64,000 nt of DNA. Source: Nocardioides insulae DSM 17944 (lineage in GTDB: Bacteria > Actinomycetota > Actinomycetes > Propionibacteriales > Nocardioidaceae). Every line of letters starts with the position of its first letter. Within the stretch, counting starts at the first letter, position 1. The notes beneath the pieces are model-generated. The model searched no databases, was not told the origin of the DNA, and saw only the letters and a list, made by a program, of their open reading frames with translations. A program made the position numbers and the translations under genes. Positions 38,981 to 47,101 of the stretch are shown in pieces. The stretch is taken from positions 558,001 through 622,000 of the forward strand of contig NZ_KE383929.1 of the NCBI RefSeq assembly GCF_000422825.1, written 5' to 3'.

Positions 38981-40291
38981 TCACACCGTGACCAGCGGTG
39001 CCAGCTCGGCCAGAGTGACCTCACCGATGCCGTCAACCTCGATGAGCTCGTCGACCGAGGTGAACCCACCGTGCTCGGTGCGCCAGTCGAGGATCGACTG
39101 CCCGGTCACGGGACCGACACCGGGCAGGGCGTCGAGCTGGTCGAGCGTCGCGGTGTTGAGATCGACCGGTGCCGCCGGTGACTCGGGTGCACTGGCGGCG
39201 GGCACTTCACCCGGCACCTCCGTCTGCCCCGATGCTCCTGTCTGCCCCGGCACCCGGCCCAGCACGACCTGCTCGCCGTCGACCAGCGGACGGGCGAGGT
39301 TGAGAGTGCTCAGATCCTTGGCCCGTCTGGCCCCACCTGCCGCCCGCACCGCGTCGATGACCCTCGAACCCTGTGGCAGGCTCAGCACCCCTGGGCGGCG
39401 GACCCGACCCACGACGTGCACCAGCAACTCGGCGCCGATCGCCGGCGACGTCGGGGCCGATGTTTCGGACGTGTCGGACGGCTCAGACCGCCCGGATGTC
39501 TCGAACCGCACGGCCGTATCGGCCACCTCGGTCGGCTGAACCGGCTGCCCGGCCTGGTCTGGGGCATCCAACGGAACCAGCGGAGCGGCGCTCGTCGTCG
39601 GGGAGGCAGGGGGCAGCGGTGCGGCGGCATCCCTCACCACCCACCACGAGGTGACCAACAGCCCGGCGACCAGGACGAGCACGACCGCCGTGACCTGCCA
39701 GGGACCGAGCCGCACCCGGCCGCGCAGCGTCTCGGGGACGGACCCGATCGCCGACGCGGCAACCGTGTCGCCGACCCGACCGCGCCAGTCAAGCCGACGC
39801 CGCTCGGCATGGCGCCCCGGACTCGGGACCGGAGACGACACCGGAGCAGCCGGCGCCGCGCCGGCCACCGTCGGGCTCAGGTCGGTCTCCCGCCCCGCGC
39901 CGCCCCTGGCTCCACGCACGTCGTGGGCCAGGGGCCAGGGTCCGCGACCGGGCTCCTCGTCGAGGCCCGACTCCTCCCCGACCGGTCCAGGCAGCCCGGG
40001 CTCGCGGGTGTGCGCGCCCCACCACGCATCGGGGTCAGCTCGGGGACCACTGCCGGCGCGGCCACCGGGGTCCTCGCCGGCGTGAGCGGTGCCGCGGTCG
40101 GCCACCGCTCCGGGCAAGGCCGACCCCGGCAACGCCGACCCCGGCAACGCCGACCCCGGCAGCGTTGACCCGGGCGATGAGGCGCTGCGGTCGCCCCGAT
40201 CGCTCTCCCACCCGGCCTCCCGCTCGGCTCGCACCTGGGCCAGGCGACGGTTGAGTGTCTCCAGATGCTCCGCCCGCTGACGACCTCTCAT
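38981..40291 (-). CDS. comEA: ComEA-like helix-hairpin-helix DNA receptor with long N-terminal extension
   Basis: 436 residues, longer than typical ComEA (about 200). A cytoplasmic low-complexity extension with repeated GSALP units, a single membrane helix (VTAVVLVLVAGLLVTSWWVV, about residues 205-225), a Ser/Pro linker, an SLBB-like domain (ELLVHVVGRVRRPGVLSLPQ) and a C-terminal helix-hairpin-helix pair (VDLNTATLDQLDALPGVGPV, GFTSVDELIEVDGIGEVTL). ComEA binds incoming dsDNA outside the membrane. ATG 40291 lies 6 nt after a TAGCCT -10; comEC follows after 3 bp. Confidence 0.92.
   Translation of the reverse strand: MRGRQRAEHLETLNRRLAQVRAEREAGWESDRGDRSASSPGSTLPGSALPGSALPGSALPGAVADRGTAHAGEDPGGRAGSGPRADPDAWWGAHTREPGLPGPVGEESGLDEEPGRGPWPLAHDVRGARGGAGRETDLSPTVAGAAPAAPVSSPVPSPGRHAERRRLDWRGRVGDTVAASAIGSVPETLRGRVRLGPWQVTAVVLVLVAGLLVTSWWVVRDAAAPLPPASPTTSAAPLVPLDAPDQAGQPVQPTEVADTAVRFETSGRSEPSDTSETSAPTSPAIGAELLVHVVGRVRRPGVLSLPQGSRVIDAVRAAGGARRAKDLSTLNLARPLVDGEQVVLGRVPGQTGASGQTEVPGEVPAASAPESPAAPVDLNTATLDQLDALPGVGPVTGQSILDWRTEHGGFTSVDELIEVDGIGEVTLAELAPLVTV
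40111..40170. repeat. 15-bp in-frame tandem repeat inside comEA
   Basis: Four consecutive 15-bp units of the type CCGGCAACGCCGACC. They encode the GSALP pentapeptides on the minus strand. In-frame length means copy-number change would lengthen the protein without breaking it. Confidence 0.9.
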
Positions 40292-41842: not shown

Positions 41843-44335
41843 TCAGACGACGATGTTGACCAGCTTGGGCTCACGCACGATCACCTTGCGGATCTGCGCT
41901 CCGTCCAGCGCCCGCTGCACTGCCGGGTCGGCCAGTGCGAGCTGCTCCAGATCGGCGGCGGAGACCGACGGGGAGACCTCGAGCCGCGCCTTCACCTTGC
42001 CCTTGATCTGGACGACGGCGGTGACGGCGTCCTCGACCAGCAGGGCCGGGTCGACGCTGGGCCACCCGGCGCGGGCGACGGTGGGCTGGTGGCCGAGCCG
42101 CTCCCACATCTCCTCGGCGGTGTACGGCGCCACCAGGCTCAGCAGGATCGCCACGGCCTCGGCCGCCTCGCGCACCGCCGGGTCGGCGGGGCCGCAGCCG
42201 GAGTCGATCGCCTTACGGGTGGCGTTGACCAGCTCCATGGTGCGCGCGACCACGACGTTGAACCGGTGGCCCTCGATGAGCTGCTCGGCCTCGGCGAGGG
42301 TCTTGTGCGTCGCCTTGCGCAGCGCCGGATCACCGTCCTGGACCGCCGCGCCGGGCTCGGAGGCGACGTCGCCGGCGAGCCGCCAGGCACGCTGCAGGAA
42401 CTTCAGCGAGCCGCCGGGGCTCAGGTCGGCCCAGTCGATGTCGTCCTCGGGCGGGCCCGCGAAGACCAGGGTCAGCCGGACCGCGTCGACGCCGAACTCG
42501 TCGATCATCTCGCCGAGGTTGACGCCGTTGCCCAGGGACTTCGACATCGCCTTGCCGCCGTTGATCACCTGGCCCTGGTTGAGCAGGGCGGTGAACGGCT
42601 CGGTGAAGTCCAGCATCCCCAGGTCGTACAGGACCTTGGTGAAGAAGCGGGAGTAGAGCAGGTGCAGGATCGCGTGCTCCACGCCGCCGACGTACTGGTC
42701 GATCGGCCCCCACTCACGCAGCGCCTCCGCGTCGAACGGCGCACCCTCCTCATGAGGAGAGACATAGCGCAGGTAGTACCAGGAGGAGTCGACGAAGGTG
42801 TCCATGGTGTCGGAGTCGCGCTTGGCGGGCCCGCCACAGGTGGGGCAGTCGACGTTGACCCAGGACTCCGCGGCCGCCAGCGGCGAGACGCCCTTCGGCT
42901 TGAGGTCGGCCCCACGCAGGTCGTCTGGCAGCACCACCGGCAACTGGTCCTCCGGCACGGGTACCTCACCGCAGGTGTCGCAGTGGATGATCGGGATGGG
43001 GGCACCCCAGAACCGCTGCCGGGAGAGCAGCCAGTCGCGCAACCGGAAGTTGACGGTGCCGGTCCCGCGCCCGTCGGCCTCCAGCTGCTCGATGATCCGG
43101 TGGATGCCGGCCGCCTTGTCGTCCAGGCCGTCCAGGGCGCCGCTGTTGACGTACACGCCGTTGCCGGTGGTGGCGACCCAGCTCTGCTCGGGGTTCTCCT
43201 CGCCGGTGTCGACGACGCGTCGTACCGGGAGCCCGAACTCGCGGGCGAAGTCGAGGTCCCGCTGGTCGTGCGCCGGCACCGCCATGATCGCGCCGGTGCC
43301 GTAGTCGGCCAGCACGTAGTCGGAGGCCCACACCGGCATCTGCTCGCCGGTGAGGGGGTTGGTCGCGGTGACGCCCAGGTCGACGCCGGACTTGGGCCGG
43401 TCGCTGGCCAGACGGTCGATGTCGCTGGCCTTGCGCACCTCGGCCAGGTAGGTCTCCAGCGCGCCCCGCTGCTCCGGGGCCACGAGCTGGCCCGCGAGCG
43501 CGGCGTCGGCCGCGACGACCATGAAGGTGGCGCCGTACAGCGTGTCGGGGCGGGTGGTGAAGACCGTGACCCGCTCGGTCCCACCGGAACCGTCGGCGAG
43601 CGCGATGTCGAAGTCGACATGCGCACCCTCGGAGCGACCGATCCAGTTGCGCTGCATCGCCAGGACCCGCTCGGGCCAGGTGTCCGCCAGCGAGTCCATG
43701 TCGTCCAGCAATCGCTGGGCGTAGTCGGTGACCTTGAAGTACCACTGGTTCAGTTCGCGCTTGGTCACGACGGCACTGCAGCGCTCGCACAGACCGCCGA
43801 CGACCTGCTCGTTGGCGAGCACGGTCTGGTCGTGGGGGCACCAGTTGACCGGGCTGTTCTTGCGGTAGGCGAGGCCGCGCTCGCGGAACTTCAAGAACAG
43901 CCACTGGGTCCAGCGGTAGTACTCCGGGTCTGAGGTGTGCAGCCGGCGGGACCAGTCGAAGGAGACGGCGTACCGGCGGAAGGACTCGGCCTGGGTCTCG
44001 ATGTTGGCGTAGGTGTAGACCTTGGGGTGCTCGTCCCGCTTGATCGCGGCGTTCTCGGCGGGCAGCCCGAAGGAGTCCCAGCCGATCGGGTTGAGCACGT
44101 CGTAGCCACGCTGCCACCAGTAGCGGGCGATGATGTCGTGCAGGGCCATCACCTCGGCGTGGCCCATGTGGAGGTCGCCGCTGGGGTAGGGGAACATGGT
44201 GAGCGCGTAGCGCTTCTCCGCCCCGGCACGCTGCCCGGCCCGGAAGGGATCGATCTCCTCCCACACCGGGCGCCACTTGTCCTGCAGCGCGGCCGCGTCG
44301 TAGACCGCCTCACTCACACTCTGCTCCTGCGTCAT
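41843..44335 (-). CDS. leuS: Leucyl-tRNA synthetase
   Basis: 830 residues from ATG 44335 ([21 protein letters not shown]); ATG 44386 would sit at the 3' edge of the leader terminator and is less likely. Class I signature [19 protein letters not shown] (HMGH) and [19 protein letters not shown] (KMSKS). A CP1 editing domain is present ([19 protein letters not shown], then [15 protein letters not shown]). It charges tRNA-Leu and edits mischarged Ile/Met. The upstream leader (44388-44468) carries a Leu-rich peptide and an intrinsic terminator, so expression is probably controlled by attenuation. Confidence 0.97.
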
Positions 44336-44387
44336 CGTCGTCTGTGCTCTCTGGGCTCGGGTTGTCTCGGGTCTGCTTCCCGACATG

Positions 44388-44413
44388 AAAAAACCCCTCA
44401 CTCAGGGAGGGGT
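44388..44413 (-). terminator. Intrinsic terminator in the leuS leader
   Basis: On the minus strand ACCCCTC-N7-GAGGGGT is followed by a run of T (complement 44388-44393). It ends 52 bp before the leuS start, so transcription must read through it to make leuS. Confidence 0.85.
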
Positions 44414-44414
44414 C

Positions 44415-44439
44415 GCCGCGCTGTGCTGGTCAGCGCGGC
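44415..44439 (-). promoter_or_regulatory. First hairpin of the leuS leader
   Basis: GCCGCGCTG and CAGCGCGGC are perfectly complementary (9 bp, 7-nt loop). The leader peptide stop codon lies inside the hairpin, so a translating ribosome would disrupt it. Confidence 0.75.
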
Positions 44440-44468
44440 CGCGGAAGAAGCAGGTTCATCGACTGCAC
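44430..44468 (-). CDS. leuS leader peptide (12 residues, three consecutive Leu)
   Basis: GTG 44468 opens MQSMNLLLPRPR and stops at TGA in the first leader hairpin. A second start ATG 44459 gives MNLLLPRPR. TACGCT (complement 44475-44480) lies 6 nt before GTG 44468, so the leader would be made from a leaderless transcript. The Leu-Leu-Leu run just before a hairpin and terminator, upstream of leucyl-tRNA synthetase, is the classic layout of an amino-acid attenuator. Confidence 0.7.
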   Translation of the reverse strand: MQSMNLLLPRPR

Positions 44469-44474
44469 CCGCCC

Positions 44475-44480
44475 AGCGTA
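44475..44480 (-). promoter_or_regulatory. -10 (TACGCT) of the leuS leader transcript
   Basis: TACGCT on the minus strand, 6 nt before GTG 44468. No convincing -35. Confidence 0.5.
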
Positions 44481-44837: not shown

Positions 44838-46976
44838 TCAGTCGGCCAGGTAGGACACCACCACGGACGGCCGCGGGAAGTCATCGGTGTGCGGCCAGGT
44901 GCTGTACGGCGAGGCGAAGGTCGAGTCGTCGCTCTCCCCCGGGTGCTGGACGGCGACGAACAGAGACCGGTCGTCGTCGGCGACGAGCGGGCCGCAGGCC
45001 TCCGCACCGCGGGGGACCGTCACCATCTGCTCGACCCGGCCCCGGTCGCGACCGCTGAGCGGGACCCGGAAGACGCCGTCGTTCGATCCCAGCACATTGC
45101 CGTCGGTGGAGATCCAGATGTTGCCCGCCTCGTCGAAGGCGACGTTGTCGGGGCAGCTGATCGGACTCACCTTCGACTTGTCGTAGCCGGCGAAGTAGGT
45201 CTCGGGGGCTTCCGGGTCACCGCACACCAGGAACAGGTCCCAGGTGAACCTGTCGGAGGCATGGTCACCCCGATGGGGGGTCATCTCGAGCACGTACCCG
45301 TTGCGGTTGCCACTGGCCGCCGTCAGCGGGGCGCCGAGCTGGGAGCGCACCATCGAGGAGGCCAGGGGGTTGGCCTCGTCGGGCTCCATCCCCGCCTGGC
45401 CGCGGTTGGAGTTGTTGGTCAGGGCCGCATAGACCTTGCCGTTCCACGGGTTCGGCTCGACGTCCTCGGGGCGATCCATCCGGGTCGGGGCGACCTTGTC
45501 AGCGGCGAGGCGGGTGAAGACCAGCACCTCTTCCAGGCTCATCCCGGGGACGTAGCTGCGCCGGTGGGTGGCCAGCCGGATCCACTCCCCCGTGCCGTCG
45601 TGGACGCCGTCCTCGGTGCCGTCACCGGTGAGCCGCGCGACGTACAGGGTGCCCTCGGTGAGGAGCAGCTTGTTGTGCCGGCGGGCCCAGGGGCTGTCCG
45701 AGGGGAGGTAGCGCTCCTGGGAGACGAACTTGTACAGGTAGTCCCCGCGCTCGTCGTCGCCCATGTAGGCCACCACGCGACGGTCGTCGTTGACGATCAC
45801 ATTGGCACCCTCGTGCTTGAACCGCCCCAGCATGGTGTGCTTCACCGGGGTCGAGTGCGGGTCGAGCGGATCGATCTCCACGACCCAGCCGAACCGGTGC
45901 GCCTCGTGCGGCTCGGTCGCCAGGTCGAACCGCGGGTCGCTGGCCGCCCAGTTGCGAGCGGCCCCGCCGGTCGCGGAGATCCCGTAGCGCGCGTACTCGG
46001 TGGCGTACTGGGCGGGGACTGTGCCGGTCGAGGAGGAGAAGTACTGGTTGAAGTTCTCCTCGCCGGAGAGCACCGTGCCCCAGGGCGTGGAGCCACCGGC
46101 ACAGTTGTTGAAGGTGCCGAGCACGGTGCGCCCGCGCCGGTCGGCCGAGGTCCGCACCAGGTCGTGGCCGGCCACCGGGCCGGTGAAGGCGAACTCGGTG
46201 GCGTCGTGGAACCGCCGGTTGTGCCTGGTACGCCGGGGCGAGACCGGTCGCCACGAGCCCGGCGTACGGCCGCGCTCCAGGGTGACCACGGACATGCCGT
46301 GGCTGGCCATCGCGATCCGGCGGATGTCGTCCTCGGAGTAGGTGTCGGCGGGGAACATCAGTTCCTCGTTGGTGTACTCGTGATTGACGACCAGCAGGGC
46401 GCGAGTGCCGGGCCGGTCGCCGGAGTCCAGCGGGATCAGGCCGACGTAGTCGCAGTTGTAGCCGAACTGGGCGCGCGCCGACGCGACGCTCTGCCGGTGG
46501 GGGTCGAACTGGGTGGCACCCGGGACCACGGGGTCGCCCCATCGCATCACGACCTCCGACTCGAGCCCCTTCGGGACGGTGAAGGCGTCGCGGACGTTGG
46601 GCGCCACCGGCTCCACGTCCACCCGGCCGAGGCCACCGCCGCGCGAACCGTGACCGTTGCCGTGACCCGGGCCGCGACCCGGGCCGTGACCCGGGCCGGG
46701 ACCATTGCCGTGACCCCTGCCGGGTCCCGCCACTGCCGGGCCGGCGATCAGGCCGGCCAGCACCAGGGCCCCGCCGCCGACGGCGGCACCCTTGACCAGG
46801 GAACGGCGCTGCAGCGCCGTGTTGACGACGTCGCGGACGTGCGGGTGCTCGGAGCGGTTGGGCTCCGGGTGATCACACGCGTTGCCGCACCGGTAGAAGC
46901 AGGTCGCATAACTGCGCGAGCCATGTCGGGTCACGGGGAACAGCGGCAGGGAGCGACGCTCGGGGGCGGTCGTCAT
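44838..46976 (-). CDS. phoX: PhoX-family (DUF839) Tat-exported phosphatase
   Basis: 712 residues from ATG 46976. A Tat-like motif ALQRRSLVKGAAVGGGALVL is about 60 residues in, after a His/Cys-containing N-region, followed by a Gly/His/Pro/Arg low-complexity linker. The mature part is PhoX: NHEYTNEELMFPADTYSEDD, GTFNNCAGGSTPWGTVLSGE, DPLDPHSTPVKHTMLGRFKH, CPDNVAFDEAGNIWISTDGN. PhoX is a Ca/Fe enzyme releasing phosphate from many phosphomonoesters outside the cell. The unusually long leader before the twin-arginine is a family feature in actinobacteria. Confidence 0.93.
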   Translation of the reverse strand: MTTAPERRSLPLFPVTRHGSRSYATCFYRCGNACDHPEPNRSEHPHVRDVVNTALQRRSLVKGAAVGGGALVLAGLIAGPAVAGPGRGHGNGPGPGHGPGRGPGHGNGHGSRGGGLGRVDVEPVAPNVRDAFTVPKGLESEVVMRWGDPVVPGATQFDPHRQSVASARAQFGYNCDYVGLIPLDSGDRPGTRALLVVNHEYTNEELMFPADTYSEDDIRRIAMASHGMSVVTLERGRTPGSWRPVSPRRTRHNRRFHDATEFAFTGPVAGHDLVRTSADRRGRTVLGTFNNCAGGSTPWGTVLSGEENFNQYFSSSTGTVPAQYATEYARYGISATGGAARNWAASDPRFDLATEPHEAHRFGWVVEIDPLDPHSTPVKHTMLGRFKHEGANVIVNDDRRVVAYMGDDERGDYLYKFVSQERYLPSDSPWARRHNKLLLTEGTLYVARLTGDGTEDGVHDGTGEWIRLATHRRSYVPGMSLEEVLVFTRLAADKVAPTRMDRPEDVEPNPWNGKVYAALTNNSNRGQAGMEPDEANPLASSMVRSQLGAPLTAASGNRNGYVLEMTPHRGDHASDRFTWDLFLVCGDPEAPETYFAGYDKSKVSPISCPDNVAFDEAGNIWISTDGNVLGSNDGVFRVPLSGRDRGRVEQMVTVPRGAEACGPLVADDDRSLFVAVQHPGESDDSTFASPYSTWPHTDDFPRPSVVVSYLAD

Positions 46977-47101
46977 CGGGGCCTCTCTCGTTGTATCGGG
47001 GATGGACCGGCACGGTCCGGTCCGTCCGGAAGGTAGGGGTCGCGATCGCAACGGATGCGAGCCCCGGATGACGACGGGGTGAACGTCTCTCGACCAACTG
47101 A

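Follow-up and report, generated by a model that had tools for sequence, protein, structure and literature searches.

The gene for leucyl-tRNA synthetase (leuS) in Nocardioides insulae DSM 17944 is preceded by a short reading frame rich in Leu codons, a perfect hairpin and a second hairpin that ends in a U-run. This arrangement raises the question of how such a leader could switch leuS between termination and readthrough. A sequence-only reading had seen in it the standard layout of an amino acid attenuator, while finding the antiterminator pairing not obvious. We examined the leader in its genomic context, a 64,000-nucleotide stretch of DNA (the window, whose coordinates are used here), and compared it with leaders from other genomes, the nearest named relatives of the source genome in the search being Nocardioides and Marmoricola. 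The features of the locus are the following:

44475..44480 (-): -10 element TACGCT, ending six bases before the leader start codon
44430..44468 (-): leader reading frame VQSMNLLLPRPR plus stop, 12 codons, GTG start at 44468 (direct reading and orthologous leaders)
44432-44430 (-): leader stop codon (direct reading)
44445..44453 (-): regulatory codons CTG CTT CTT (Leu-Leu-Leu), the last CTT (44447-44445) lying five bases before P1
44440..44444 (-): five-base spacer, variable in sequence and fixed in length (aligned leaders)
44415..44439 (-): hairpin P1, 9 perfect bp, loop of 7 (direct reading, folding, covariation)
44393..44413 (-): terminator hairpin T, 7 bp, loop of 7, one base after P1 (direct reading, covariation)
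44388..44393 (-): U-run of six U, the first of which doubles as the last paired base of T
44384..44385 (-): conserved UG, 9 and 10 bases past the last stem G (44394)
41843..44317 (-): leuS, leucyl-tRNA synthetase (Pfam PF13603, PF00133, PF08264)

Direct reading bore out the elements that had been noted at the outset. The 12-residue frame with its three successive Leu codons was numbered correctly, and the perfect 9-bp hairpin does meet the leader stop, since the 5′ arm of P1 (GCCGCGCTG, 44439-44431; 3′ arm CAGCGCGGC, 44423-44415) takes up two bases of the stop codon. The 7-bp hairpin with a U-run is likewise present, its arms ACCCCTC (44413-44407) and GAGGGGT (44399-44393) forming 7 pairs before the six U. 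For leuS itself we infer a start at 44317, a GTG after AGGAG, while the open frame extends to 44401. The next gene upstream of the leader on the same strand (44838-47051) encodes a PhoX-type alkaline phosphatase (PF05787), and ARAGORN calls a tRNA-Thr (ggt) of 98 nt at 39806-39903 (-) that is long and very GC-rich and looks doubtful.

Folded as a single sequence, the window leader gains just a mild advantage over its shuffles (z = -1.78; 10 of 200 were as good), so the case for a regulatory element rests on comparison. We therefore applied a finder to 212 leuS upstream regions, a sample that includes non-actinobacteria and contigs with almost no upstream sequence (74 of 125 listed leuS places were fetched, 4 were already in the sample, 2 were present as loci and the remainder was left out). 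To pass, a region must have a short frame containing three Leu codons, a P1 arm that begins 0-12 nt downstream of these codons, T directly behind it and a U-run. Of the 212 regions 79 passed, one of which (L115) was spurious and was dropped, leaving 78 leaders; a second leuS leader of one genome (L259) and a chance match in the window's genome (L220, E = 3.25) were also left out. Among controls shuffled in 30-nt blocks 1 of 636 passed, with a score of 12.8 against at least 16.9 for every real leader, and none of the 212 reverse complements did. Passes numbered 52 of 66 in the window's genus and 26 of 146 elsewhere, the latter taking in named Nocardioides, non-actinobacteria and contigs cut near leuS. 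The remaining 14 of the 66 fail the strict definition, which passes over leaders that the eye recognises but that have two Leu codons or a degraded U-run.

The leader, its Leu codons, P1 and T recur across several actinobacterial groups. Conservation of the Leu codons and of the stems in related leuS leaders, which had been suggested as a check, was found for both (78 of the 212 regions carrying the full set of elements, counted as non-independent events because leaders of the same gene share descent). A covariance model built from 51 leuS leaders (R1) scored the window leader, itself among the 51, at 83.5 bits and gave 82.7 bits to leader L245, which is not in the model; R1 had matches in 247 of 394 genomes, a figure that mixes leuS with cimA and ilvB leaders. 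When the whole window was compared with the 4227 families of Rfam, among them the T-box, no match reached the gathering score, and one sub-threshold match near the leader scored 17.1 bits against a cut-off of 49.5. With a strong terminator defined as a perfect stem of at least 6 mostly G-C pairs, a loop of 3-12 and then at least 5 consecutive T, T was the only such site in 864 kb of the source genome, window included, in a scan that left out the stretch with this genome's ilvB leader. Leader-dependent attenuation of leuS, as predicted from these comparisons, is well supported by conservation.

The spacing at the 5′ end is similarly regular. The sequence-only reading had taken the -10 as one that would make the leader mRNA leaderless, and the six bases between TACGCT and the GTG recur in the related leaders: in 63 of the 78, TANNNT stops exactly six bases short of the start codon, and in the other 15 it stops five or seven bases short of it, compared with 1 of 1266 other ATG/GTG in the same regions, an excess that is in part selection because the finder favours starts with a -10. 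A leaderless leader transcript is expected from this distance, which fits the leaderless transcript reported for LeuL2 of S. lividans in the accessible text of PMC8079986.

The distance between the Leu codons and P1 is fixed. Exactly 5 nt separate a Leu codon from the core of P1 that follows it in every one of the 78 leuS leaders, a selected set in which this constancy holds within the 0-12 nt range of the finder. The codon in this register is CUU in 74 of the 78, a codon that makes up 18 of the 2117 Leu codons (0.85%) in 34 leuS genes. The P1 core starts with GCCG in 77 leaders and with CCCG in one, and 24 of the 78 carry 1-3 extra outer P1 pairs, the outermost then lying 2-4 nt from Leu3. 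Among the 51 aligned leaders the spacer occurs in 32 different versions without a gap, and the leader stop shifts (it follows the Leu run at 3 nt in 26 of the 78 leaders, at 12 nt in 46 and at other distances in 6). Since spacers and stop positions vary at a fixed distance, it is the length that is kept and not the sequence.

This length corresponds to a dimension of the ribosome. The bacterial mRNA channel spans 11 nt counted from the first P-site nucleotide, and a hairpin at +12 stands at its entrance, according to the available portions of PMC7282821 and PMC8861025. The P-site codon, the A-site codon and five bases add up to 11, so that a ribosome whose A site holds the last Leu codon would have P1 just outside the channel. 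When a ribosome was stepped in silico along the 78 leaders with a five-base mask, the share of P1 pairs left was 98, 98 and 94% for an A site at Leu1, Leu2 and Leu3, and it dropped to 52% one codon beyond Leu3 and to 5% two codons beyond it. A nine-base mask left 98, 81 and 25% at the same three codons, 75% of the pairs being gone at Leu3. With either mask, P1 in this model gauges whether the ribosome has passed the Leu codons.

In a trp-type attenuator, the helix of the on-state has bases in common with the terminator. P1 and T themselves are readily recovered in the leuS leaders: changes on both sides occur in 11 of their 18 pairs among the 51 aligned leaders, and 0 of 500 shuffles reached the observed value on any of five covariation measures, the structure used in this test having been read from the same 51 sequences. 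The arms of P1 pair better with their own partners than with arms swapped between leaders (z = 15-23), as do the arms of T (z about 20). The next-best own-versus-swapped value, 5.8, belongs to a segment set against an overlapping copy of itself, the one after that is 2.6, and over the segment pairs these helix scores revealed nothing besides P1 and T. Constrained folding of the leaders at five ribosome positions likewise yielded no antiterminator, with a median probability of T of 0.98 at each position, and P1 and T coexist in the predicted free RNA. (Folding and swap computations covered the leuS leaders; the trp leaders discussed below were compared by reading only.) A pairing of 3-4 bp between the P1 3′ arm and the T loop, first followed by eye, was discarded as too short and not constant.

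The linker between P1 and T measures 1 base in 42 leaders, 0 in 24, -1 in 9 and more (up to 3) in 3, and hence stays within -1 to 1 base in 75 of the 78, while the P1 loop ranges from 3 to 48. P1 and T have one base in common in 9 of the 78 leaders and none (linker of at least 0) in 69. Measured against the classical trp type, the leuS leader has cognate codons in a translatable leader and, by sequence, an intrinsic terminator, but, the single base in those 9 leaders aside, no antiterminator helix with terminator bases in common was found. The initial hesitation about the antiterminator was therefore justified, as neither folding nor helix scores produced one that has bases in common with T, and the description of a standard layout holds for the codons, the hairpins and the terminator but not for a base-sharing antiterminator.

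Beyond the terminator stem, position 9 after the last stem G is T in 71 of the 78 leaders and position 10 is G in 66, both occurring together in 66. TG is found at the same place in 20 of 31 cimA and ilvB leaders (four of the other 11 are misanchored or have no run) and in 2 of 18 terminator-like control sites, a thin control consisting mostly of chance sites, a further terminator control being contaminated by leaders. The elemental pause consensus is G-10 Y-1 G+1, and the conserved UG would put this consensus at the release point, as if it were a polymerase pause site.

We propose that the leuS leader controls its gene by ribosome-mediated transcription attenuation in response to charged tRNA-Leu, and that P1 probably serves in it as an antiterminator without sharing bases with T. 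A 70S ribosome would presumably start on the 5′-terminal GUG. With plentiful Leu-tRNA, it would pass the Leu codons, each step feeding P1 into the mRNA channel, and the unwinding of P1 would allow T to form at the U-run, stopping transcription before leuS. With scarce Leu-tRNA, the ribosome would wait with a Leu codon in its A site and with P1 folded outside the channel; P1, abutting T, would then prevent T from closing at its foot within the exit channel of the polymerase, and leuS would be transcribed. P1 would thereby fill the role of the antiterminator with no bases in common with T. In each of these two chains, the half that involves the ribosome and P1, predicted from sequence as it is, is supported by geometry and conservation, whereas the hindering of T by P1 is something we infer from the narrow P1-T distance and from analogy with C. 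glutamicum ilvBNC. The recurrence of the same layout with Ile codons at cimA and with Ile/Leu/Val codons at ilvB indicates that the codons follow the gene. Against a hindrance by P1 stands the folding, in which T forms at all five ribosome positions with P1 coexisting. In the absence of a ribosome P1 would fold, and leuS would consequently be read; the E. coli trp attenuator behaves otherwise in that situation.

The folding results bear most directly on an alternative that also invokes attenuation by charged tRNA-Leu but assigns P1 to the opposite side, as a protector or pause ('1:2') hairpin that goes with termination, readthrough being set by a non-RNA factor such as a ribosome-polymerase contact or a protein. 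The coexistence of P1 and T, the formation of T at every ribosome position tested and the lack of a competing helix with an own-versus-swapped excess all speak for it. We nevertheless consider it unlikely, because a P1 that is folded during the stall at the Leu codons would have the wrong sign unless overridden, and because the P1-T linker of -1 to 1 base would be left without a role. A classical three-segment attenuator whose antiterminator had been missed, formed either by the P1 loop and the T 3′ arm (a pairing proposed for Corynebacterium ilvB-II) or by the Leu codons and the T 3′ arm (on the analogy of the leuA LEU element), is decidedly improbable. In 73 of the 78 leaders a helix of at least 5 bp is possible between the Leu codons and the T 3′ arm, but the pairing displays little own-versus-swapped excess (z = 2.6), it would be blocked by the stalled ribosome and so carry the wrong sign, and T still wins in folding; the P1 loop reaches at least 5 bp with the T 3′ arm in 21 of 78 leaders only (z = -2.1).

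There is very little room for a constitutive promoter-proximal terminator with an incidental leader peptide. Such a terminator would agree with the predicted formation of T in all tested states, but the cognate codons are conserved and change with the downstream gene, the register between codon and P1 is fixed, and no second site of equal strength occurs in the 864 kb. Least credible is translational control, with GAGGGG of the T 3′ arm as a ribosome-binding site for a start codon past the U-run: an ATG or GTG follows shortly after the U-run in 33 of the 39 leaders listed, but UUG and CUG are also found at that position and the frame to leuS is mixed (0, 1, 2; some with stops before leuS), and we dropped the idea because the frame to leuS is not kept.

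The attenuator reading with P1 as the antiterminator gains a wider setting from leaders of other genes. The sequence-only reading had contrasted the synthetase gene with leucine biosynthesis as the site of this attenuator, a contrast that fails, since leuA of the same genome (contig C2, 541932-543686) has its own LLL leader upstream: PLLLSRRSEV plus stop, with CUU, five bases and an 11-bp hairpin, and no terminator. CUU, five bases and the hairpin core are present in 30 of 30 leuA loci (the source genome and 29 relatives' loci, read from 39 places listed), the hairpin having 11 bp in 28 of them, 7 bp in one and 13 bp in one, where it reaches two pairs further out. A four-T run follows the hairpin in 4 of the 30, directly behind it in two. 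This scarcity of T runs is in line with the leuA leader of S. lividans, which is described as having no typical terminator in the accessible text of PMC8079986. Because leuA has the same unit of codon and hairpin mostly without a terminator, P1 may act at the ribosome in its own right.

R1 also finds, in relatives, leaders with Ile codons before cimA (citramalate synthase) and with Ile/Leu/Val codons before ilvB (acetolactate synthase), both genes being named by sequence motifs, without a family search, in the 31 of 34 non-leuS places that were read. Among the 17 cimA leaders, 12 (8 identified by script, 4 by eye) have the hairpin at a distance of 5 nt from the last Ile codon and the other 5 have it at 6 nt; this codon is AUU in 15 and AUC in 2. 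In the 14 ilvB leaders the distance to the hairpin is 3-5 nt from CUU or 5-7 nt from GUA. The register script gave no hairpin for 7 of the 31 cimA and ilvB leaders, and in L268 it took a helix that does not adjoin T. The source genome has an ilvB (contig C3, 560824-562263) with a leader upstream (L294), MPASILVRTRRAR plus stop, which lies behind a -10 and has a hairpin flush with the terminator and T6GTTG. A close cimA was not found in the source genome, where the best match (29% identity) is a leuA by place and sequence. As a separate observation, cimA of Nocardioides relatives (L260-L265, L269, L279 and others) has an Ile-run leader, for example MQHRTIIIR plus stop, with the layout of P1 and terminator, and a literature search on cimA Ile-run leaders found no report of them.

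The trp leaders of Streptomyces are built differently. In all 20 loci read (33 genomes with a match, 61 searched), GGCGGCC occurs 11 nt after the last Trp codon and complements GGCCGCC, which serves as the 5′ arm of the hairpin that follows; they thus exhibit the classical overlap, whereas leuS leaders share one base at most. The distance of 11 nt instead of five limits the register claim beyond the branched-chain amino acids. Within these bounds we put forward, tentatively and as something still rather doubtful, that a codon-registered hairpin unit is reused before leuS, leuA, cimA and, more loosely, ilvB, with the regulatory codon mostly NNU and about five bases before the hairpin. The hairpin may hinder the binding of A-site tRNA, which would make the detection of charged tRNA sharper; at leuS, cimA and ilvB it may also oppose the terminator by adjacency instead of by base pairing. 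Independent cases are few (leuS, leuA, cimA, ilvB), as the leaders are related within each gene.

Attenuation is usually taught as a base-pair competition between antiterminator and terminator. If our proposal is true, attenuation that combines an active stall hairpin with the lack of a base-sharing antiterminator would count as a distinct mode. A large group of actinobacterial leaders seems to fix the distances from codon to hairpin and from hairpin to terminator, while spacer sequence, loop length and stop drift. If P1 acts by position, such attenuators could be found with a ruler instead of by alternative folds, and the five-base spacer would give experiments direct access to how ribosomes detect charged tRNA.

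Several known systems resemble parts of this leader. M. tuberculosis ilvB1 supports the attenuator class, in that changing its LVVI codons to Ala abolished induction, as given in the accessible part of PMC13236596. In the C. glutamicum ilvBNC 'fast attenuator', as described in the available portion of PMC11857589, the antiterminator hairpin adjoins the terminator hairpin and overlaps it by three bases; mutations in the antiterminator alone were of moderate to weak effect, most of the variation being accounted for by terminator stability, which speaks against leaning far on this analogy. In the Corynebacterium ilvB-II motif, the loop of P1 is proposed to pair with the foot of the terminator (PMC10272879, accessible text). 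Insofar as these sources describe them, ilvBNC and ilvB-II are like the leuS leaders in having branched-chain codons in the leader and a post-codon hairpin that adjoins the terminator, but the leuS leaders differ in an overlap of one base at most and in the lack of a conserved pairing between P1 loop and foot. The LEU element, a Leu-codon leader before leuA, was proposed in 2005 to bind a protein (PMC1262725, accessible text); we take the leuA leader described here, which mostly has no terminator, to be this element from its place. The hairpins of dnaX and HIV frameshifting, of 11-12 bp and located 11 nt from the P-site codon (with a five-base spacer in dnaX), hinder A-site tRNA binding at 11-12 nt, and 13 nt relieves this, in the accessible text of PMC7282821 and PMC8861025; their likeness to P1 is geometric, and no frameshift is proposed.

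The closest counterparts are the leuS attenuators of Streptomyces. For S. avermitilis and S. coelicolor these were predicted in 2005 by Seliverstov et al., who called them classical, with an antiterminator hairpin (PMC1262725, accessible text), and the RNA-seq annotation of S. lividans TK24 includes LeuL2 (MRAVRLLLSEPR), a leaderless frame of 12 residues with three Leu that is followed by a hairpin and a U stretch before leuS (PMC8079986, accessible text). The LeuL2 peptide MRAVRLLLSEPR is encoded letter for letter by L245, the related leader before leuS that R1 matches. Going by the available portions of these two sources, the leader examined here has the same arrangement of Leu-codon frame, hairpin and U-run before leuS, but belongs to another organism and encodes another peptide, and across the 78 leaders P1 and T share no more than a single base, in 9 of them; the five-base register found here is unmentioned for Streptomyces leuS in the accessible text of PMC1262725 and PMC8079986. 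Neither a fixed codon-to-hairpin register in actinobacterial leaders nor an attenuator without base sharing was found in titles and abstract openings of the open-licence literature. With a leaderless-type Leu frame, a post-codon hairpin, a hairpin with a U-run and homology through R1, all features of the LeuL2 type, the leuS leader of N. insulae is, as judged from sequence, a member of the known kind of Streptomyces leuS attenuators, and its fixed register and absent base sharing are, as far as could be seen, previously undescribed properties of that kind.
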